In this document: positions 7,657 through 20,876 of the stretch, piece by piece
How positions within the stretch are numbered: the first letter of the stretch is position 1
How the letters are laid out: each line of letters begins with the position of its first letter
Source: Salinarchaeum sp.
GTDB lineage: Archaea; Halobacteriota; Halobacteria; Halobacteriales; QS-1-68-20
Reading direction: 5' to 3'
Assembly: GCA_007122875.1 (NCBI GenBank)
Contig: SKSS01000039.1
Coordinates: 1-32,551 of the forward strand
Length of the DNA: 32,551 nt
Program-made: the position numbers and the translations under genes
The notes under the pieces: model-generated
Database searches by the model: none
What the model saw: the letters and a program-made list of their open reading frames with translations, nothing else
What the model was told of the DNA's origin: nothing

Positions 7657-7735
7657 GTTCCGCCTCGAATACGTGTGAGTCGGGGTCGTTCGATCGCACG
7701 AAACCGTTAGGGTGGGGGGTTCCGAACGCTCTGCC

Positions 7736-8245
7736 ATGGAGTTCGATGCCGTCCACGGCGACATCGCCGCACAGGAGGCCGACGCGCTGGTGAACGCGGC
7801 CGGAACGAGCCTGCGGATGGGCTCGGGCGTCGCGGGGGCGCTCCGCCGGGCCGCCGGTGAGAAACTCAACGAGGAGGCGATGGCGAAGGGCCCCGTCGAT
7901 CTGGGCGAGGTGGCCGTCACCGACGCCTACGACCTCGATGCCGAATACGTGATCCACGCGGCGGCGATGCCACATTACGGGGATGGAAACGCGACCGAAG
8001 CGAGCATCCGGACGGCGACCCGAAACGCCCTGACGGCGGCCGAGGAACGAGGCTGCGAGTCGATCGTGATTCCCGTCCTCGGAACCGGAGTCGCTGGATT
8101 CGAGTTCGAGCAGGGTGCTCGGTTCGTCTGTGAAGAGATTTCGGTGTTCGAACCGGAGTCGCTCTCGGACGTGCGCGTGATCGCCTACGGAGAGGATTCA
8201 TACCGGATGCTCGAACGGGTGGCAGACGAACTTCACTCGCGGTGA
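7736..8245 (+). CDS. Macro domain protein (probable ADP-ribose/O-acetyl-ADP-ribose hydrolase)
   Basis: GDIAAQEADALVNAAGTSLRMGSGVAGALRRAAG and IPVLGTGVAGF motifs; start at Met 7736. Confidence 0.9.
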   Translation: MEFDAVHGDIAAQEADALVNAAGTSLRMGSGVAGALRRAAGEKLNEEAMAKGPVDLGEVAVTDAYDLDAEYVIHAAAMPHYGDGNATEASIRTATRNALTAAEERGCESIVIPVLGTGVAGFEFEQGARFVCEEISVFEPESLSDVRVIAYGEDSYRMLERVADELHSR

Positions 8246-8364: not shown

Positions 8365-8955
8365 TTACCGACCTACTGTGCGTTTGATACCGGTCTCGCT
8401 CAGGCGGTCCTCAACCTCGATGAGGTCCGTTTGAAAGCTATCGAACCGGGGCTTCGCATCGTCGGGATAGAGCGATGTCGTACACGTCCGTTTGACTTCG
8501 ATGCGCGTGACGTCGAGTTCGTTTGCAACGATATCCATCGACCGCCGGAGCCTCGTTCGGGACCGTTCGGACGGGTCCGTCATCGTGAGAAACGCATACG
8601 AGACCCACTGAACGTACTGTTGGGTCTTCGCGTCGGATACCCATCGCTCGGGCAACACCGCATCGAGGTGTTCGACGACCGATTCCGGCATCGGATCGAT
8701 CACCTGTAGTTCCTCTGGAAGCTTCGATTCGCCGTCGATACGCCGCTCGGTCGATTCCCCCTTCCCGTCCGTTTCGGTGCTCGTCTCGCCGTCCTCAATG
8801 AGAACCTCGTCCCAACCCTGTTCGCTCTCCTTCCACTTCCGTTCCCCCTCGTCGGATTCCGTGTGCTGTTCGAGGATCTCATCCGCGCTCTCGCTGTTCT
8901 CGGTATCAACGTCGGGAAGCGGATCCGACGACGCGCTATTTCGGTTCGATACCAT
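8365..8955 (-). CDS. Uncharacterised protein; charged N-terminus, C-terminal domain shared with 11330..12106
   Basis: C-terminus VLPERW..D.KT..YVQWVSY...CTTSLY...DSF..D aligns with the second protein across about 100 aa. Confidence 0.8.
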   Translation of the reverse strand: MVSNRNSASSDPLPDVDTENSESADEILEQHTESDEGERKWKESEQGWDEVLIEDGETSTETDGKGESTERRIDGESKLPEELQVIDPMPESVVEHLDAVLPERWVSDAKTQQYVQWVSYAFLTMTDPSERSRTRLRRSMDIVANELDVTRIEVKRTCTTSLYPDDAKPRFDSFQTDLIEVEDRLSETGIKRTVGR

Positions 8956-9217
8956 TTGATACCCGATCGTTGGTAGCGTTTGTTCAAATATCTTGTTATA
9001 TGCCCATATTTCACTTCTGCTATTGCAGAATAGTACAACAGGGAGATGGAAGTCGTTCAGTGGGAGATCATCTTTCTGTACTTACCAGACAGTGGTATCA
9101 AGAACCGCACACAGGCGATGCAGGCCGGGTTCCTCGGGAATCGATCTTCAGGCTGTTCACTTCGGACGGCATCGCCGTGGGACGAACCGGGGACGATCGG
9201 TCGAAAACGTCCCTCGA

Positions 9218-10015
9218 TCAGTCGTCTGCGGGTGCGACGTCCGAGGCGTCCGGTTCGGAGCCGACGTGTGGCCGGAGGACGACCCGATCGTAGGTGATCG
9301 CGCCGGCGATCGCGCCCGCCGTCGGTGCGACGACGTAGATCCAGGCGTGAGCCCAGAGGCTCTCACCGCCGAACGCTGTGGTCGTGACGTACGGACCGAG
9401 CGTGCGGGCCGGGTTGAACGATCCGCCGGTGATGTTTCCGGTCGTAAGAACGCCGACGGCGACGATGCCGCCGATCGCGAGACCGGCGAAGCTATCGGGC
9501 GTTCGCTCGTCGACGGCCATCGCCACGACGGTGAGCATCAGGAAGAAGGTAATCACACCTTCGCTGAGTGCTGCCTGCCACTGTTCGACACCGGGGAACG
9601 GAGCTGTCGCCCCCATCGAGGCGATTTCAACAGCTTCCGGCCCGCGGATCAACGTGAACAGTACCCCGGCGACGATCGCTCCTGCCAACTGGGCGACGAT
9701 GTACACCGTCGCCGATTTTCCGTCGATGCGTCGTAAGACGAGAAAGCCGATCGTCACGGCCGGGTTGATGTGCTGACCGGAGACGTGTCCGAACAGGTAG
9801 ATCGGAATCGCCACCGCACCCCAAAACGCGAGCGCGATTCCGACCCATCCGAGCGTCCCCATTCCAAGTCCGTCGAGAACGAACTCCGTTCCCGCATCGG
9901 GTGGAGCGGTCATCAGATCGACGACCACCGCACCGGCCCCGATGAACACGATGCTGAACGTGCCCAGGAACTCAACGATGGCCTTCTGTGTCAGTGTGTA
10001 TTCTTCTTGACCCAT
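9218..10015 (-). CDS. MIP family channel (aquaporin/glycerol facilitator)
   Basis: Two NPA-type motifs (INPAVTIGFL and FNPARTLGPYV), six hydrophobic segments. Confidence 0.92.
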   Translation of the reverse strand: MGQEEYTLTQKAIVEFLGTFSIVFIGAGAVVVDLMTAPPDAGTEFVLDGLGMGTLGWVGIALAFWGAVAIPIYLFGHVSGQHINPAVTIGFLVLRRIDGKSATVYIVAQLAGAIVAGVLFTLIRGPEAVEIASMGATAPFPGVEQWQAALSEGVITFFLMLTVVAMAVDERTPDSFAGLAIGGIVAVGVLTTGNITGGSFNPARTLGPYVTTTAFGGESLWAHAWIYVVAPTAGAIAGAITYDRVVLRPHVGSEPDASDVAPADD

Positions 10016-10294
10016 CGTTTTGATGTATATTCCAGTTCTGATATATTTTTTGTTAGATACTTGTCTTTTGTGAGGAGTGAGAAATTATATAATTATGATT
10101 GGTTACATCCATATATTGTCATGAGGGGCTGGCAGACTCTGTCTAGTTAGCGCGACTTGAGAAGCGAGTGGGTCGTAGAGTTGGGTGGTATGACGCTCGT
10201 GACCGACCCCGCGAGTGCCACGCGACCGAAGGGAAGACCAGGCGGTGGGGCAGAAGTCTTCACACACCCTGAGCTGCACGATTTTACCTTCATT

Positions 10295-10330
10295 CTACAC
10301 CATCGTCCCTAAAAGTATAAGATGGTGTAG
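10295..10330. promoter_or_regulatory. Perfect 10-bp inverted repeat flanking a TATA-like sequence upstream of the CPBP gene
   Basis: ctacaccatc-gtccctaaaagtataa-gatggtgtag; 10330 is 17 nt before the ATG at 10348. Confidence 0.8.
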
Positions 10331-10347
10331 TAATCATCCGTTAGTAG

Positions 10348-11055
10348 ATGAACTTATCGCGGATGGCCGGGGATCAGTCAAATCGAACGTGGACAATTAC
10401 GATTATCGGAGTGCTCCTCGCTCTGTTTGGTTTTCTACTGCTCCGAGTCTGGGAACTCGCAACTGGAATCGCGGTCGGTCGAATTGGCACTTCTGTATTC
10501 AAATGGGTACTCGTCGGAGCAGTCGTGCTGATCGTTCTCCGATTTGAACGGGAGTCACTGGCTTCCATCGGTGTCGTCAAACCTGACCGATGGGACGTGC
10601 TCACCGGCATCGCGCTGTTCGTTTTCGGGTTGCTCTCGTTTCTGCTGGCTGCCCCACTCGTCGAGGCCCTCGGATTCGACATCGCCCCGTTTGATGGCGA
10701 CTCGAACGGGAGTGTGGACCGGACGATGACTGCGCTTCTCGTCGGACTCTTCGTCGGGGTGACAGCGGGGATAACCGAGGAAATGTTGTATCGAGGATAT
10801 GGACTCGAACGGTTGGAAGCGCTGTCCGGCTCGACGTGGGTCGCTGGAACCGTCACGGCATCCCTGTTTGTCGTGATTCACTTCGGCGGACACGCGTTCG
10901 GCGGGCTGCTTGTAATCACCCCCGTCGCGGTGTTATTGACGGTTGGATACGTTTGGCGACGAAATATCTTCGTGCCGATTATTGGGCACGTGTTGATCAA
11001 CAGTTTCGGGGGAATTATTTCGCTCTTCACGCTCCTTCTCGGATCACTATCTTGA
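10348..11055 (+). CDS. CPBP family intramembrane glutamic endopeptidase (Abi/CAAX-protease-like)
   Basis: TEEMLYRGYGLERL (EExxxR), FVVIHFGGHA, and FVPIIGHVLINSFGG; multiple TM segments. Confidence 0.88.
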   Translation: MNLSRMAGDQSNRTWTITIIGVLLALFGFLLLRVWELATGIAVGRIGTSVFKWVLVGAVVLIVLRFERESLASIGVVKPDRWDVLTGIALFVFGLLSFLLAAPLVEALGFDIAPFDGDSNGSVDRTMTALLVGLFVGVTAGITEEMLYRGYGLERLEALSGSTWVAGTVTASLFVVIHFGGHAFGGLLVITPVAVLLTVGYVWRRNIFVPIIGHVLINSFGGIISLFTLLLGSLS

Positions 11056-11071
11056 TTCAGCGAGAGAATCC

Positions 11072-11195
11072 CGCCGTTCACGGCGTTCGCAAGACCGACG
11101 GTCTTGTGTGCCACCCAGGAGTCAGTGACTTCTGGGGAGATTGACGAGACGCTTCGCGTCTCGTTCGCACATCAGAACGCTTTGCGTTCTGAGGA
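11072..11195. repeat. Cluster of five closely spaced noncoding hairpins
   Basis: cgccg-ttca-cggcg (11072-11085); aagacc-gac-ggtctt (11091-11105); ccaggagtc-agt-gacttctgg (11115-11135, one GU); acgagacgc-ttc-gcgtctcgt (11144-11164); tcagaacgc-ttt-gcgttctga (11172-11192). Confidence 0.75.
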
Positions 11196-11329
11196 CGGGC
11201 GTGAATCGCATAAGCTCCGTGTCACTAGGCGGTGCCGGCTGGCGTGATCTGGTACTTCCCGTGTCGGGTTCTGAACCCCCGAAGAATAGTTGAGATTCCG
11301 ATCACGGCAACCGCAACCGTACACGGCCG

Positions 11330-12106
11330 CTACTTGTACAGTTCGTAGATCATCCGGACGTCGTTCCGAAAGCTGTCCGCAGAGGCGTCAGTTTCGTCAC
11401 GGTAGAGGTGTGTCGTGCAGACTCGGCTGATCGCGTCGATGTCTGTCTCGAACCGATCGGCGGCCATGTCCATGGCGTTTCGCATGCGCTTTGCGGCCTC
11501 CTCGTCTTCGTCGGTCTCCTCGAAGAACAGATAGATGACCCACTGGACGATCTCCTCGGTCTTCTCGTCTTCACGCCACCGGTCCGGAAGGACGTGATCA
11601 ATGTGTGAAAGCAGGTCGTCCGGAATCGGTGCGATCGCCTTGATCGCGTCCGTTCCTGCGCCCTGCTCCGGAACGGCTCCCTGGTTTTGCACCGGTTGAC
11701 CCTGGGGTTGATTCTGGACCGGCTGACCCTGCGGCTGGTTCTGTGCGGGCTGACCTTGCGGCTGATTCTGGACCGGCTGACCCTGCGGCTGGTTCTGTGC
11801 GGGCTGACCTTGCGGCTGATTCTGGACCGGCTGACCCTGCGGCTGGTTCTGTGCGGGCTGACCCTGTGGCGGATTCTGTGCGGGCTGGCCCTGTGGCGGA
11901 TTCTGTGCGGGCTGACCCTGTGGCGGATTCTGTGCGGGTTGACCCTGTGGCGGGTTCTGTGCAGGCTGACCCTGCGGCTGGTTCTGTGCAGGCGGATTCT
12001 GCGGCGGATTCTGTGCGGGCTGGCCCCCCGAATCCTGTCGATTCGCTCTCTCATCGTCTCCCTGGCGGTCGTTCCGTTCGTCCCGTCTGTTCTGATTGTT
12101 TGCCAT
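11330..12106 (-). CDS. P/Q/G/N-repeat protein with C-terminal domain shared with 8365..8955
   Basis: Long 9-aa repeat region (GQP[AV]QN[PQ]PQ), then VLPDRWREDEKTEEIVQWVIY...CTTHLY...DSFRNDV. Confidence 0.8.
   Translation of the reverse strand: MANNQNRRDERNDRQGDDERANRQDSGGQPAQNPPQNPPAQNQPQGQPAQNPPQGQPAQNPPQGQPAQNPPQGQPAQNPPQGQPAQNQPQGQPVQNQPQGQPAQNQPQGQPVQNQPQGQPAQNQPQGQPVQNQPQGQPVQNQGAVPEQGAGTDAIKAIAPIPDDLLSHIDHVLPDRWREDEKTEEIVQWVIYLFFEETDEDEEAAKRMRNAMDMAADRFETDIDAISRVCTTHLYRDETDASADSFRNDVRMIYELYK
11681..12025 (-). repeat. 27-nt (9-aa) tandem coding repeat with exact 54-nt higher-order copies
   Basis: gattctggaccggctgaccctgcggctggttctgtgcgggctgaccttgcggct at 11710-11763 and identical at 11764-11817; a third copy starting at 11818 matches for most of its length. 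Confidence 0.95.
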
Positions 12107-12767: not shown

Positions 12768-15074
12768 CTACTGGAGCCGTTCGACGATGGCCTCGCGAAC
12801 CGATCGTGGGGTCGTATCCTGACCGCGGACGATAGCGACGGTTCCGCCGGCGGACTCGGCGATCGACTCGGGGACCGACCCGAACAGCACCTGTTCGACG
12901 GCGCTCGCGCGCGTCGCACCGATACAGACGGTGTCGTACTCGTCGGCCCGATCGTGGAGCGTCCCCTCGACATCGTCAGAAACGACGACCACGGCTTCGT
13001 AGTCGTCGGGAGTGAGTCCAGCCTCCTCGGCGACCTCGTCGATTCGTTCGCGCCCGACGGTCTCCGGATCGGCGACCGCCTCGTCGTCGATCGGTTCGTC
13101 CTCGTCGGGTGCGTCCGTCGGCGATTCGACGGTCAACAGCGTCAGCGTCGCGTCCGGTTCAGTGCGCACGAATTCGGCGGATCGGCGGACGGCAACCGGT
13201 GTGTGCGGTCCGCTCCCGACGAAGGTGACCGTGTCGCCGAGGCGGCCGTCCCGCCACGTCACGAGCGTCACCTCGCACGGGGCCTGGGTGACAACCGGAT
13301 CGATCGTCGACCCGAAGACGTGTTCACGGCGGTTCTTCCGTCCCGACCAGCCGAGGACGACCTCGTCCGCGTCTTCGTCTTCGATCACGTCGAGGATCAC
13401 TCGACCGGCGTCACGTCCGACGATCGCCCGCGTTCGCAGTCCCACGTCGAGTTCCTCGGCGCTCCGTCGAGCGCTGTCGAGAAGTGCTTGCTGCCGTTCG
13501 ATGCGCTCCTCCTCGAAGTCGAGCTTTTGAGCGAGCGCGGTCTGGGGTGGCACCTCGAGCACGTTTACGGCGACGATTTCGGCGTTCTCGTGGGCATGCG
13601 CGCTCGCTGCCGCAAGCCGAATCAGTCGCTCTTCCGTTTCGGGGTTCGCGACCGGAACGACCACGCGGTACGGCCGATCGGCGTCATCCTCGGTCTCCAC
13701 ACCGTGGATGATTGCCTCGCCGACGAGCGACTCCCGGACGCCGTGTTCTCTGGCGTAGACGAGATACCAGCCGATCCCGACCAGCACAATCACGCCACCG
13801 ATCAACAACACCACGGTGCTCATCTGCGTGATCACCGCGATGCATGCGAGAAAGCCGACGATCGGGACGGTTGGATACAGCGGTCCGGGAATGCGGAAGT
13901 CGGGGTCGTACCCCTCCGGATCGGAGCGTCGCATCACCACGACGGCGACGTGGACCAGCGCGTACGTGAACAGATACGTAAAGCTCGCCACTTCCGAGAG
14001 CGTCTCGATACCGACTTCGAGGGCGATCAACACAAGAATCACCGCGCCGGTGACGATGATCGCTCGGTACGGCGTCCGGTACGTGCCGTGAATCTGGTTG
14101 AGCCAATCCGAGAGGATCCGGTCCCGTCCCATCGCGAAGTTGACCCTGGCTGCCGAGAGGATCGACGCGTTCGCCGAGGAGACGGTCGCCAGCACCGCGC
14201 CGAGTACCATCACGAGCGCCCCGACCGTCCCCAGCGAAAGATCGTACCCGGCGATCGCGACGGACCCAAACAGCGACGCCAGCGCCGCTTCCGCCACGTC
14301 GGCGACCGGAATCCGTGAGCCGTCCAGCTCCGGAACCGGAAGGACGCCCGTCGAGACGCCCATCACGGCCACGTAGAGGATCGTCGGAACCAGCACGGCC
14401 GCGATCATCGAGAGCGGGAGGTTCCGACCGGGGTTCTTGATCTCCTCTGCGCTCGTGGCGATCACCTCGAAGCCGATGAACGCCACGTAGACGATTCCGG
14501 CCGTCGCGACGACCGAACCCCACCCATCCGGGTTGAACGGTCGGAACGTTTCCGCATCGACCGCGAACACGCTGACCGCGATGAACGCAATGATCACGCC
14601 AATCAGCGCGACGACGATGACGTTCTGGAGCTGGCCGGTCTCCTTGACCCCGCGATAGTTGACCAGGATCAGCAGCGTAGACATGAGGATGGCCGCTATC
14701 GCGATCGGGACCTCGGGGTGAAAGAACGTGAGGTACTCGGCGAAGCCGATCATGTAGAAGGCGGTCGCGAACATCAGCCCGGCCCACATCCCCCAACCGA
14801 CGATACTCCCGAAGAAGCTCCCCATCGCCCGGTTGACGTAGTAGTAGCTGCCGCCCGCTCTCGGCATCCCGGTGGCGAGTTCCGAAAGTGAAAGCGCCGC
14901 CAGCAGCGAGACGACCCCGCCGATGGCGAACGCCACCATGCTCGCCGGACCAGCCTCGGCGGCGGCGATACCGGGGAGGATGAAGATTCCCGCGCCGATC
15001 ATCGTCCCGACGCCGATCGTGAACGCCTCCAAGAAGCCGAGGTCGCGAGCGAGTTCCTGTTCCCGCTCGCTCAC
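12768..15074 (-). CDS. APC family amino acid permease fused to C-terminal universal stress protein domains
   Basis: N-terminus FTIGVGTMIGAGIFILPG and about 12 TM segments; C-terminus YRVVVPVANPETEERLIRLAAASA plus a second USP-like module. Confidence 0.92.
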   Translation of the reverse strand: MSEREQELARDLGFLEAFTIGVGTMIGAGIFILPGIAAAEAGPASMVAFAIGGVVSLLAALSLSELATGMPRAGGSYYYVNRAMGSFFGSIVGWGMWAGLMFATAFYMIGFAEYLTFFHPEVPIAIAAILMSTLLILVNYRGVKETGQLQNVIVVALIGVIIAFIAVSVFAVDAETFRPFNPDGWGSVVATAGIVYVAFIGFEVIATSAEEIKNPGRNLPLSMIAAVLVPTILYVAVMGVSTGVLPVPELDGSRIPVADVAEAALASLFGSVAIAGYDLSLGTVGALVMVLGAVLATVSSANASILSAARVNFAMGRDRILSDWLNQIHGTYRTPYRAIIVTGAVILVLIALEVGIETLSEVASFTYLFTYALVHVAVVVMRRSDPEGYDPDFRIPGPLYPTVPIVGFLACIAVITQMSTVVLLIGGVIVLVGIGWYLVYAREHGVRESLVGEAIIHGVETEDDADRPYRVVVPVANPETEERLIRLAAASAHAHENAEIVAVNVLEVPPQTALAQKLDFEEERIERQQALLDSARRSAEELDVGLRTRAIVGRDAGRVILDVIEDEDADEVVLGWSGRKNRREHVFGSTIDPVVTQAPCEVTLVTWRDGRLGDTVTFVGSGPHTPVAVRRSAEFVRTEPDATLTLLTVESPTDAPDEDEPIDDEAVADPETVGRERIDEVAEEAGLTPDDYEAVVVVSDDVEGTLHDRADEYDTVCIGATRASAVEQVLFGSVPESIAESAGGTVAIVRGQDTTPRSVREAIVERLQ

Positions 15075-15576
15075 TCCCGCTCACCACCGGACACAATCAC
15101 GGGCACCACCGAGTGTGTTCGTCTCGGCGAGCAGTTAGTGGACACGTCTGATAGCTCCTCGACGGTCATGAACGCAGCATCCCCATCGAAGCGTATAAAG
15201 ACATCGGCATTATTCCGGATTCAAAAATAATATGGGTATCTTTTCCCTTTCAACTCGTTCCGGGGCAAGAATATTACGCTATCAGGTCTACTCCGAACGC
15301 TCCGTTTCGAACCACCGGGACGTTCACTCGACCCGGTCACCATCGACCGCCAGTAGGATGGAGATGATCGCCACCCAGTACTAGTGCCAGACGTATCGCT
15401 ATCACTTTGCTAATATCTACACCGGGATAGGTGCGTCCACCATCGGTGGAATCATAATGGCCCCTTTCAATGAAGGCGACATGCACAATCGCTCTCGTCG
15501 AACGCGAGGGTACGTTCGCGAGAACGGGTCCGTTCTGCGATGTCACACCGAGCAGCTACAACGGAGGGGATAGCCC

Positions 15577-18021
15577 GTGAGCGACGAACTAGCCAAGGAC
15601 CTCGGATTGTTGTCGGCGATGACGATCGGTATCGGGACGATGATCGGGGCGGGTATCTTCGTCCTCCCTGGGGTGGCTGCCCAGGAGGCCGGTCCCATCG
15701 TCGTCCTCTCGTTCGTCATCGGCGGGATGATCGCGATGATCAACGCGCTCGCCGTGAGCGAACTCGGGACGGCGATGCCGCGAGCCGGCGGTGCGTACTA
15801 CTGGATCAACCGCTCGCTCGGGCCGTCGTTCGGCTCAATCGCCGGCATGGGAGATTGGATGGGGCTGGCGTTCGCATCGGCGTTCTACTGCATCGGTTTC
15901 GGTGGCTACCTGGCGGGGATGCTCGGGGGCACCGTCGTCACGATTCCGTTCGTCGGCGGGTCGATCGTCCTCCTTCCGTCGATCGACTTCTGGCTGTTCA
16001 CCCTGACCGACATCCAGATCGGGGCGCTGATCGCGGGGATCATCTTCGTCGGCGTCAACTACATCGGAGCGAAGGAGACCGGCGGCGTGCAGACGGTCAT
16101 CGTCCTGATCCTGCTCGGGATTCTCACCGTCTTCGCGGTCGCTGGATGGTTCCACTTCGACTGGTCGACCGTCGTCGGCAACGGTGGACTTGCCCCGACC
16201 GAACAGGGCTACGGAGCGGTTCTCCCCGCCACTGCGCTCGTGTTCGTCTCCTTTCTCGGCTACGCGAAGATTGCCACCGTCGCCGAGGAACTCAAGAACC
16301 CCGGACGGAACCTGCCGATCGCCGTCATCGGAAGCGTCGGAATCGTCACCGTCCTCTACGCGATTTTGGTGCTGGTGATGGTCGGCGTCATTCCGTGGAA
16401 CGAACTCGATGTCAACGTCCCCGTCTCGCAGGTCGCAGAGACGACCCTTGCCGGCCCGATCACCGTGGGCGAACTGGCGATCCCGATCGGCGGTGCGGGG
16501 GTTTTCGCGATCTCGATCGGTGCGCTCTTGGCGACCGCCTCCTCGGCGAACGCGTCGATCCTCTCGTCGGCCCGAATTAACTTCGCGATGGGCCGGGACA
16601 AGATCGTCTCCGACTGGCTCAATGAGATCCACCCTTCGTTCGCGACGCCGTATCGCTCGATTCTCGTCACCGGATCGCTCATCGTCGTCTTCATCGTCGC
16701 GCTCGGCCAGAATTTGGAGGTGCTCGCACAGGCCGCGAGCGTCCTCCACCTGATCGTCTACGCGCTGATGAACGCCGCGCTAATCGTCTTCCGCGAGACC
16801 AACCCGCCCGACTACGACCCGGTGTTCACGGTGCCGCTGTATCCCATCACGCCGATTCTCGGTGCGACGCTCTCGCTCGGACTGATCGCCTTTATGGCCC
16901 CGACTGAAATCGCACTGAGCGTGCTGTTCGTCGTCGGAGCGCTCCTCTGGTACTTCCTGTACGCACGGACGGAGACCGAACTCGAGGGGTTGCTTGCCAA
17001 GCACGTCCTCGACCGCGCCGAGGAGTACCCCGATCCCGCCGTGACCGCCGTGGAGGCGGCCAGCCCCGCCGAATCTGGCCCGTACCGTATTTTGGTCCCG
17101 GTGTCGAATCCCAACACAGAACGAGTTCTCATCGACCTCGCGTGTACGCTCGCCGCGGAACGGGAGGACGGCAGGGTTCACGCCGTCCACGTCGTGCAAG
17201 TACCGGATCAGATGGCGCTCGGTCACGCCGTCGAGCATCGTGAGGAGATCGACGCCGAATCCGACGCCCTGTTGGAGAGCGCCAGAGCGAGCGCCGCCGA
17301 CTACGATCTCGAATTCGAGACCTCAACGATCATCTCCCACCGCTCGCTTCCGGAGGTGTTCGATGCGGCCGAACGCCATCACGCCGACGCGATCGTGATG
17401 GGGTGGGGGGCCGAGCGACCGTGGAGCGCTGGACGGGCCCAGCGTGCCCTCGACGATCTCACCGAGCGGCTTCCCTGTGATGTGTTGGTCCTCAAGGACC
17501 GGGAGTTCGATCCCTCCCGAATCCTGCTTCCGACCGCGGGCGGCCACGACTCCGACCTCAGCGCCGAGGTGGCACGCACGCTCCGATCGGCGGTCGGATC
17601 GGAGATCACCCTCTTGCACGTCGTCGACGGTCCGGACGACCGCGAAGACGGCGAGCGGTTCCTTGCGGAGTGGGCTGCGGAACACGAGTTCGGCGACGCC
17701 GTCCTCAGCGTCGACGACACCGGAGACATCGAGGAGGCGATCGCCGCCGAGGCCGCAGACCACACCCTCATGCTGATCGGCGCGACCGAGCGAGGACTGC
17801 TCTCGCGGCTCCTATCCGACTCGCTGCACATGAACGTCGTCGACGAGGTGGACTGTTCGGTGCTGCTGGCCGAGCGTCCCTCCGAGCGGTCGCTCCGCGA
17901 GCGGCTGTTCGGGCGGCAGGTGACCGACGAGTCCGGTTCGACGAACGAGGACGGCGGTTCGGCGGTCGAAATCGACGGTGAACGCGACGTAGAAGCCGAA
18001 GGGAACCCGGACGGGGAGTGA
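15577..18021 (+). CDS. APC family permease fused to C-terminal USP domains
   Basis: GTG start; MTIGIGTMIGAGIFVLPGVAAQEAG; C-terminal YRILVPVSNPNTERVLIDLACTLA and ILLPTAGGHDSDLSAEVARTL. Confidence 0.92.
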   Translation: MSDELAKDLGLLSAMTIGIGTMIGAGIFVLPGVAAQEAGPIVVLSFVIGGMIAMINALAVSELGTAMPRAGGAYYWINRSLGPSFGSIAGMGDWMGLAFASAFYCIGFGGYLAGMLGGTVVTIPFVGGSIVLLPSIDFWLFTLTDIQIGALIAGIIFVGVNYIGAKETGGVQTVIVLILLGILTVFAVAGWFHFDWSTVVGNGGLAPTEQGYGAVLPATALVFVSFLGYAKIATVAEELKNPGRNLPIAVIGSVGIVTVLYAILVLVMVGVIPWNELDVNVPVSQVAETTLAGPITVGELAIPIGGAGVFAISIGALLATASSANASILSSARINFAMGRDKIVSDWLNEIHPSFATPYRSILVTGSLIVVFIVALGQNLEVLAQAASVLHLIVYALMNAALIVFRETNPPDYDPVFTVPLYPITPILGATLSLGLIAFMAPTEIALSVLFVVGALLWYFLYARTETELEGLLAKHVLDRAEEYPDPAVTAVEAASPAESGPYRILVPVSNPNTERVLIDLACTLAAEREDGRVHAVHVVQVPDQMALGHAVEHREEIDAESDALLESARASAADYDLEFETSTIISHRSLPEVFDAAERHHADAIVMGWGAERPWSAGRAQRALDDLTERLPCDVLVLKDREFDPSRILLPTAGGHDSDLSAEVARTLRSAVGSEITLLHVVDGPDDREDGERFLAEWAAEHEFGDAVLSVDDTGDIEEAIAAEAADHTLMLIGATERGLLSRLLSDSLHMNVVDEVDCSVLLAERPSERSLRERLFGRQVTDESGSTNEDGGSAVEIDGERDVEAEGNPDGE

Positions 18022-18068
18022 TCGTTACGGGCATCCGGCGGCGATTCGCTTCGTTCGCGGTCGACTCG

Positions 18069-18506
18069 CTACTCTGGACGCTCCCCTGCAGCGGGGAGGA
18101 CGATCACCGGAACGCGGTCGTTCGCCACCAGTTTGCGGGTGAGGTTGCCGGAGAGCAGCCGCTTGATCCGTCCGCTCGGTCGCGGGACGAACGCGATCTC
18201 CGCGTCGACCTCTTCGGCGGCGGCGACGATTTCGTCGACGACGTCCGTTCCGTATCGGAGTTCGGTCTCGATGTCGTGGCCGCCCCCGTCGAAGTGCGTG
18301 CGGACCGTCTCGAAGATGTTCTCTGCCTGTTCCTCTCGTGCCTCCCTCGGCGCTTTGTCGGGTGCGCCTCCAGCTTTCTCGACGACGTGGAGAATGTGGA
18401 TCCGAGCCTCGCCGTCGAGATAGGCATCCACCGCATCGCACGTCATCTGTGCGTCCGGTTCGTGCGCAATTGGGACGATCACCCGTCTGGACGTTCGTGA
18501 GGTCAT
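18069..18506 (-). CDS. Stand-alone universal stress protein (UspA family)
   Basis: VIVPIAHEPDAQMTCDAVDAYLDGEARIHILHVVEKAGG; C-terminal SGRIKRLLSGNLTRKLVANDRVPVIVLP. Confidence 0.88.
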   Translation of the reverse strand: MTSRTSRRVIVPIAHEPDAQMTCDAVDAYLDGEARIHILHVVEKAGGAPDKAPREAREEQAENIFETVRTHFDGGGHDIETELRYGTDVVDEIVAAAEEVDAEIAFVPRPSGRIKRLLSGNLTRKLVANDRVPVIVLPAAGERPE

Positions 18507-18584
18507 TGATCGGTCGTCGTCACGACGTGGACCCGGAGACGTAAAACCCCGACTGTTCGGTCACGACCGCCCGTGGAGCGTCCG

Positions 18585-20876
18585 TCAGCGATCGGTGGTC
18601 AGGCCCAGTCGCTCAAGGATGCCCTGGCGTACGGTTCTCGGCGTTCGGTCCGGTCCGCGTGCCATCACCACCGTCCCATCGACGTTCTCGACGATGTCGC
18701 TGGGCACCGTTCCGTAGAGCGCCCGTGCCACCATGCTCTCGCCGGTTGTCCCGACACAGACGGTGTCGTAGGTGGCGACGGCCGTTATCAGTTCACGACG
18801 GACATCGTCCGCGACGAGAACCGATGTCTCGTACTCGTCGGGCGATAGTTCGGCGGCCGACGCGACCTGTTCGATTGCCGCTTCGCCAGCACGCTGGGGA
18901 TCGATCCGTTCCTCCTCGTCGCTGCGCTCATCCTCGGCGTCGTCGGGATCCGGTCTCGGCTGAACGTTGAGCAGCGTCAGGGACGTATCGGGGAAGGTCC
19001 GGGAGAGTTCCGCAGCACGCCGGGCCGAGACGGGTGCGGTCGGCCCCCGACCGGCGAGCGTGACGATGTCGCCGGGCTGTTCGGTTGGGTCTTTGACGAG
19101 CGTCACCTCACACGGTGCCTGCTCTAAGATCGGATCGATGGTCGAACCGAACAGCACGTCACGACGGCGACGTGGACCGGCCCAGCCGAGCAGCACGTGA
19201 TCGGCGTCCTCGTCGTCGATGATCGAGAGTACTGCATCCCCCGCGTTTCGACCGACGATCGCCCGCGTCCGAAGGTTCACGTCGAGTTGTTCGGCCGTGT
19301 CGCGGGCGCTCTCGAGGAGTTCCTGCTGGCGCTGTACCCGTTCTTCTTCGAGATCGAGTTGGCTCGGGGCGGTCTGCTGGGGCACCTCGATGACGTTGAC
19401 GACGACGAGTTCTGCCCCGGAGTCCCGTCCGGACGCGCTCGCCGCCGCGTATCTGACGAGCGGCTGTTCGGTCTCCGGGTTCGACAGCGGAACCACGACG
19501 CGGTAGACATCGTCGTCCTCGTCGTCATCATCCTCGGGAGCGATCGCCTCCCCGAGCAGTCCGGTCGGATCAGCGTTGTCCTTCGCATAGAGAACATACC
19601 AGACGGCCCCGAACACGACGAACCCGACGCTCAGGAGGATCTCGATCGGAGCCATGAAGCCGATGAGCGCGAACGAGAGGAACGCACCCAGAATCGGGAC
19701 GATCGGGTAGAGGGGCACCGTAAAGTCCGGATCGTAGCCGGGCGCGTCGGTCTCGCGGTAGACGATCAGCGCGACGTTCAACAGTCCGTACACGATCAGG
19801 TGGAGGACGCTCCCGGCTTTCGCGAGAACCTCGATGTCGCCGATGAGAATGAACACCAGAATGAGCACGCCCGTGATCGCGATGGATCGGTACGGCGTCG
19901 TAAACTTCGGGTGTACCTCGTTGATCCAGTCGGTGATGATCCGATCGCGACCCATCGCGAAGTTGATCCGGGAGGACGCGAGGACGGACGCGTTCGCCGA
20001 GGACGCCGTCGCAAGCAGACCACCGAACGTCAACAGGGCGAGACCGGTCCAGCCCATCAACGACTCCGCGATTCGGGGGACGGCCTCCTCGCCGTGACCG
20101 GCAACGACCTCGTACGGTGCCACGCCCATCACGACGAGCATCACCAGCGCGTAGAAGGCGATGACGAACAGCAGGCTGCCGATCACCGCGAGCGGCAGGT
20201 TCCGTCCGGGGTTCTTGAGTTCCTCAGCCACGGTGTTGATCTCCGCGAAGCCCAGATACGTCACGAAGATCAGCCCAGCAGCGGGGAGGACCGCGCCCCA
20301 GCCGCCGGTTTCAGCGGGGGCGAACGGCTGGAGGTTCGCAGTATCGACGTGGAAAAGGCCGACAGCGGTGAACACCAGCAGTACAAATACGAGGATGATC
20401 ACGATGACTACCTGGATGCTTCCGGTCTCTTTCGTCCCGTAGTAATTGACGCCGATGAAGATCAGGCCAGCGACCAGCGCCCCCACCTGTGAGGGATTGA
20501 GAAACAGCAGTTCGGGAATCGGCAGAAAGATCGCCGCGTAGGTGCCGAAGCCGATCATGTAGAAGGCGGTCGCGAACGCCAACCCGAGCCAGTTGCCCCA
20601 GCCCGCGATCGAGCCGAACAGCGGTCCGAGCGCGTCGTTGATGTAGTAGTATCCGCCACCCGCCTTCGGCATCGCGGTCCCGAGTTCGCTGATCGACAGC
20701 GCGGTAAACAGGGCGATGAACCCGGCGACCACGAAGGCGAGTGCGGCCGCGGGACCGGCCGCGGCTGCTGCCTCACCCGGCAACACGAAGATGCCCGCGC
20801 CGATCATCGTCCCGACACCGATCGTAAGCGCGGCCAGCAACCCGAGATCCTTCGAAAGTTCTCTCTCCTCGGCCAT
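18585..20876 (-). CDS. APC family permease fused to C-terminal USP domains
   Basis: LTIGVGTMIGAGIFVLPGEAAAAAGP; C-terminal YRVVVPLSNPETEQPLVRYAAASA; closely similar to 12768..15074. Confidence 0.92.
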   Translation of the reverse strand: MAEERELSKDLGLLAALTIGVGTMIGAGIFVLPGEAAAAAGPAAALAFVVAGFIALFTALSISELGTAMPKAGGGYYYINDALGPLFGSIAGWGNWLGLAFATAFYMIGFGTYAAIFLPIPELLFLNPSQVGALVAGLIFIGVNYYGTKETGSIQVVIVIILVFVLLVFTAVGLFHVDTANLQPFAPAETGGWGAVLPAAGLIFVTYLGFAEINTVAEELKNPGRNLPLAVIGSLLFVIAFYALVMLVVMGVAPYEVVAGHGEEAVPRIAESLMGWTGLALLTFGGLLATASSANASVLASSRINFAMGRDRIITDWINEVHPKFTTPYRSIAITGVLILVFILIGDIEVLAKAGSVLHLIVYGLLNVALIVYRETDAPGYDPDFTVPLYPIVPILGAFLSFALIGFMAPIEILLSVGFVVFGAVWYVLYAKDNADPTGLLGEAIAPEDDDDEDDDVYRVVVPLSNPETEQPLVRYAAASASGRDSGAELVVVNVIEVPQQTAPSQLDLEEERVQRQQELLESARDTAEQLDVNLRTRAIVGRNAGDAVLSIIDDEDADHVLLGWAGPRRRRDVLFGSTIDPILEQAPCEVTLVKDPTEQPGDIVTLAGRGPTAPVSARRAAELSRTFPDTSLTLLNVQPRPDPDDAEDERSDEEERIDPQRAGEAAIEQVASAAELSPDEYETSVLVADDVRRELITAVATYDTVCVGTTGESMVARALYGTVPSDIVENVDGTVVMARGPDRTPRTVRQGILERLGLTTDR

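Follow-up and report, generated by a model that had tools for sequence, protein, structure and literature searches.

Two neighbouring genes of a haloarchaeal contig encode stand-alone copies of a protein domain, here termed X, whose sequence homology links it firmly to restriction-type proteins. The window analysed is the whole contig (C22, 32,551 nt) of a 1.9-Mb haloarchaeal assembly that is 60% complete. Both genes, P1 (8365..8955, 196 aa) and P2 (11330..12106, 258 aa), begin with ATG and lie on the reverse strand. The explanation we favour, to which we give an even chance, is that X is an uncatalogued haloarchaeal helix-turn-helix (HTH)-like DNA-binding module common to restriction systems and orphan proteins, and that P1 and P2 are orphan regulators or architectural proteins.

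The initial annotation had described the two genes as paralogues of no named family, sharing a folded C-terminal domain of about 100 aa and differing in their low-complexity N-termini; all of this is borne out. Residues 73-178 of P1 align with residues 139-250 of P2 with 40/112 identities (36%, BLASTP E 1e-20), a similarity far above chance, and the consensus first quoted for the pair agrees with both sequences. The shared domain measures ~98 aa and occupies residues ~88-185 of P1 (8401..8694, reverse strand) and 160-258 of P2 (11333..11629, reverse strand). The N-termini of the two proteins are unrelated. P1 carries an acidic, disordered tail of low complexity (8695..8955, reverse strand), with a net charge of -17 over residues 1-80 and an enrichment in Glu, Ser and Asp. 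The tail of P2 is built largely on a 27-nt tandem repeat of 12.2 copies (11697..12026, reverse strand) coding for a 9-aa repeat of the PAQNPPQGQ type; Gln and Asn together account for 44% of residues 1-155, with Pro and Gly in addition. Neither protein has a meaningful match in Pfam, NCBIfam, PHROGs or PADLOC.

Comparison of the P2 domain with 394 class-level genomes returned weak, consistent matches within large AAA+ and other multi-domain proteins. Most of these large proteins contain an AAA_5 (McrB-like) domain, and one of the four scanned has MTaX1 on the N-terminal side of X. A profile of six X domains taken from AAA/restriction-type or large proteins, with P1 and P2 excluded, matched P1 and P2 (E 5.7e-12 and 7.3e-10) and no other ORF of the entire assembly, and a repeat search agreed. 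A profile of stand-alone members alone, in turn, retrieved AAA-fused proteins from genomes G347, G229, G125, G349 and G098 (E 1e-5 to 3e-7). The plain description of an unknown family was dropped because these restriction-type homologues turned up.

Two broader profiles detect X in 32 and 29 of the 394 haloarchaeal genomes. The union, counted from the two lists, comprises 48 genomes, about one-eighth of those sampled, yet X is without a Pfam, NCBIfam, PHROGs or PADLOC entry. The paralogy of P1 and P2 stands, but the family extends far beyond the pair to which it was first confined, X being a widespread haloarchaeal module. A phylum-wide sample added one marginal match outside class Halobacteria (G624, E 8e-4), with an unconfirmed reading of the locus, and X therefore looks essentially haloarchaeal. 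Close relatives of P1 and P2 were absent from the viral contigs, plasmids, phages and genome contigs searched, and the small stand-alone X relatives showed no family membership in Pfam. In a small tree with many long branches, P1 and P2 group with the stand-alone and RHH-like members and not with the AAA-fused ones (support 90/92). Both proteins keep the family core seen in an alignment of 26 sequences: P..W, V...F, R...A...VA, [TV][VI]...C....Y and F...L. The positions initially named as invariant are upheld in part, with P, W, hydrophobic V/F, R, C, Y and F recurring across the family, but VQW, CTT and DSF are specific to the pair.

The architectures and gene neighbourhoods of X elsewhere, as read from sequence, tie the domain to restriction. 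X precedes McrB-like AAA_5 ATPases, some of which also carry MTaX1 in the order MTaX1-X-AAA_5, and the genes of some such proteins adjoin a DUF1156 methylase (HmaB-like), a DUF499 ATPase (HmaC-like) or a DNA adenine methylase. MTaX1 has been proposed to discriminate modified DNA (PMC10853773), and loci with DUF499/DUF1156 genes have been classed as RM-like systems related to BREX (PMC12839542). An MTaX1-X-HNH_2 nuclease architecture also occurs. P1 and P2 share X with the MTaX1-X-AAA_5 proteins, such as HLAC_RS16305 (WP_237583099) of Halorubrum lacusprofundi pHLAC01, but have no MTaX1, no AAA_5 and no methylase neighbours. Pfam scans found no AAA_5 (McrB-like) domain in P1, P2 or the neighbours scanned, and no DUF1156 methylase, DUF499 ATPase or helicase among the window genes scanned; the pair does not belong to a McrB or BREX-related system. 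In a further group (L030, L032, L035) X is central, flanked by an ordered-looking, RHH-like strand-helix-helix N-terminus and a zinc-ribbon-like CxxC...CxxC C-terminus, neither of which is present in P1 or P2. The RHH-like and zinc-ribbon-like labels are our own reading of sequences that have no Pfam match. One RHH-like-X gene overlaps an HNH gene by 4 nt.

AlphaFold2, run on alignments of five sequences, predicts X to be an all-helical bundle both in P2 (five to six helices, pLDDT 79, pTM 0.72) and in the AAA-type protein L048 (pLDDT 86, pTM 0.81), in keeping with the folded domain first proposed. Helices 3 and 4 are parted by a tight turn of three to four residues in both models. The columns of the 26-sequence alignment that cover this bihelix, R..A...[VA]A...[DG][VI]....[TV][VI]...C, fit the HTH pattern, and in 21 of the 26 members the rest of the domain is more acidic than the bihelix (Wilcoxon p 1.4e-4, with relatives treated as independent). 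The HTH-like bihelix of P1, TRLRRSMDIVANELDVTRIEVKRTCTTSLY (8467..8556, reverse strand), was placed by alignment to the models; it is net positive within an otherwise acidic domain. Its counterpart in P2, KRMRNAMDMAADRFETDIDAISRVCTTHLY (11402..11491, reverse strand), was located from the P2 model and the family alignment, and is neutral, not basic.

Foldseek searches with both X models returned nothing reaching E 0.001, and hence no significant solved relative. The weak lists recurrently name HTH proteins (Spo0A_C, sigma region 4, Aca1), along with helical domains of tRNA synthetases and de novo designed bundles. The C-terminal effector domain of Spo0A (1fc3, 1lq1), which is all-helical and contains an HTH, resembles the predicted topology of X, with a TMq of 0.44-0.49 in these lists and 0.53 for a viral homologue. 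Sequence profiles did not uphold homology with Spo0A_C: an alignment of nine Spo0A_C sequences scored 15.0 in hhalign, against column-shuffled controls reaching 18.0. The HTH designation of X, itself a prediction, consequently rests on the modelled topology and the sequence pattern. P1 and P2 found nothing convincing in the PDB by sequence; a match to the lysozyme 5i8l (E 0.0016) had no passing stretch and was taken as chance.

P1 and P2 are probably DNA-binding regulators or architectural proteins. In the settings that are better understood, X accompanies readers of modified DNA in the half of McrB-like AAA+ restriction ATPases that reads DNA, or is fused or operon-linked to HNH nucleases. 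P1 and P2 represent X on its own, with disordered tails, acidic in one and rich in Pro, Gln, Gly and Asn in the other, in place of the missing effector or partner domains. By the likeliest mechanism, the domain would contact DNA through helices 3 and 4 as a dimer or oligomer, and the disordered tail would tune solubility, self-association or partner recruitment. Each protein would then act as an orphan regulator, a nucleoid or architectural factor, or a detached DNA-reader subunit.

A possible, though less probable, alternative is that X does not bind DNA at all but serves as a helical adaptor or oligomerisation domain joining readers (MTaX1, RHH-like) to effectors (AAA+, HNH), the stand-alone copies being adaptors or decoys in trans for restriction or another partner. 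In large proteins X always lies between or beside other domains, as an adaptor might; the domain is acidic overall, its bihelix in P2 reaches neutrality at most, and solved HTH structures give no significant match. The tight turn between helices 3 and 4, the agreement with the HTH pattern and the reduced acidity of the bihelix in most members speak instead for DNA binding. We regard as unlikely the more ambitious proposal that X is a DNA-recognition fold specific to haloarchaea, so far missing from every family library, and reused as a reader or licensing module in modification-dependent restriction (McrB/HNH, BREX-related), with copies of the P1 and P2 type acting in trans, as regulators or as competitors, to mark or shield those DNA targets.

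The remaining alternatives bear on the surroundings of the pair. P1 and P2 flank an aquaporin/glycerol facilitator (MIP, PF00230; 9218-10015, reverse strand) and a CPBP/Rce1-like membrane protease (PF02517; 10348-11055, forward strand), as was noted from the outset. A macro-domain protein (PF01661, E 5e-31; 7712-8245, forward strand) and a PIN-domain protein, possibly a toxin-like RNase (PF01850; 5847-6200, forward strand), lie on one side. On the other are three fusions of an amino-acid permease with USP within 12768-20876 (12768-15074, reverse; 15577-18021, forward; 18585-20876, reverse strand). The named flanking genes, which include S9 and M20 peptidases and TrkA besides the PIN, macro-domain and APC-USP permease genes, are ordinary chromosomal in character. 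Over roughly 9500-11500 the GC content falls to 0.53-0.58. A repeat of ~117 bp (11092-11208) recurs on two other contigs of the assembly, C16 (81%) and C92 (55 bp, 93%), and its copy on C16 immediately precedes an ORF read by us as TnpB-like. The repeat is therefore probably the remnant of an IS200/IS605-type end, located between the P1 and P2 genes. An Rfam scan around the locus gave no match. The accessory island suggested in the initial annotation is thus weakly supported: the GC dip and the IS605/TnpB-like remnant agree with it, but the named flanking genes are of chromosomal type, and neither an integrase nor a tRNA turned up.

It appears quite unlikely that P1 and P2 still work in anti-virus defence, as a dispersed reader or regulator subunit acting possibly with the nearby CPBP protease or macro-domain effector. 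X is frequent around restriction genes, and both candidate partners are neighbours of the pair. However, no recognised restriction or AAA/HNH defence protein was found among the neighbours scanned, P1 and P2 have no PADLOC match, and CPBP, macro-domain and aquaporin genes are commonly chromosomal. With the assembly 60% complete, a more distant partner is possible. Least probable in our estimate is that the two genes descend from a mobile or defence cassette since lost, and persist by chance as drifting, degenerate leftovers. The GC dip, the insertion-sequence remnant between the genes and the expanded minisatellite that forms the P2 N-terminus would suit such an origin. Both reading frames are intact, however, both X domains hold the core residues of the family, and the copies are still 36% identical with matching motifs.

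X occupies the part of archaeal restriction ATPases and nucleases that reads DNA. A family name for X would provide an annotation for many hypothetical proteins, and would offer a handle on the choice of DNA by haloarchaeal type IV-like and BREX-related systems, a matter open to testing in Haloferax volcanii.

Stand-alone X proteins of 110-160 aa are numerous in other genomes, and some adjoin Mrr, HsdR-N or TaqI-like genes. Examples are L090 (G087), L112 (G053) and L115 (WP_253484990), the last from a Halorussus salilacus plasmid. They are stand-alone like P1 and P2 and share with them the core R.(D)RA...VA...D.SE.TIR..C...Y...F..DL, but lack long tails of either the acidic or the PQGN kind. 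At another locus, L086 (G048:C19, 4431-13290), a stand-alone X protein lies between an Mrr-type endonuclease and a protein of 1668 aa with a weak, below cut-off match to a Sacsin domain; this locus is possibly a defence island.
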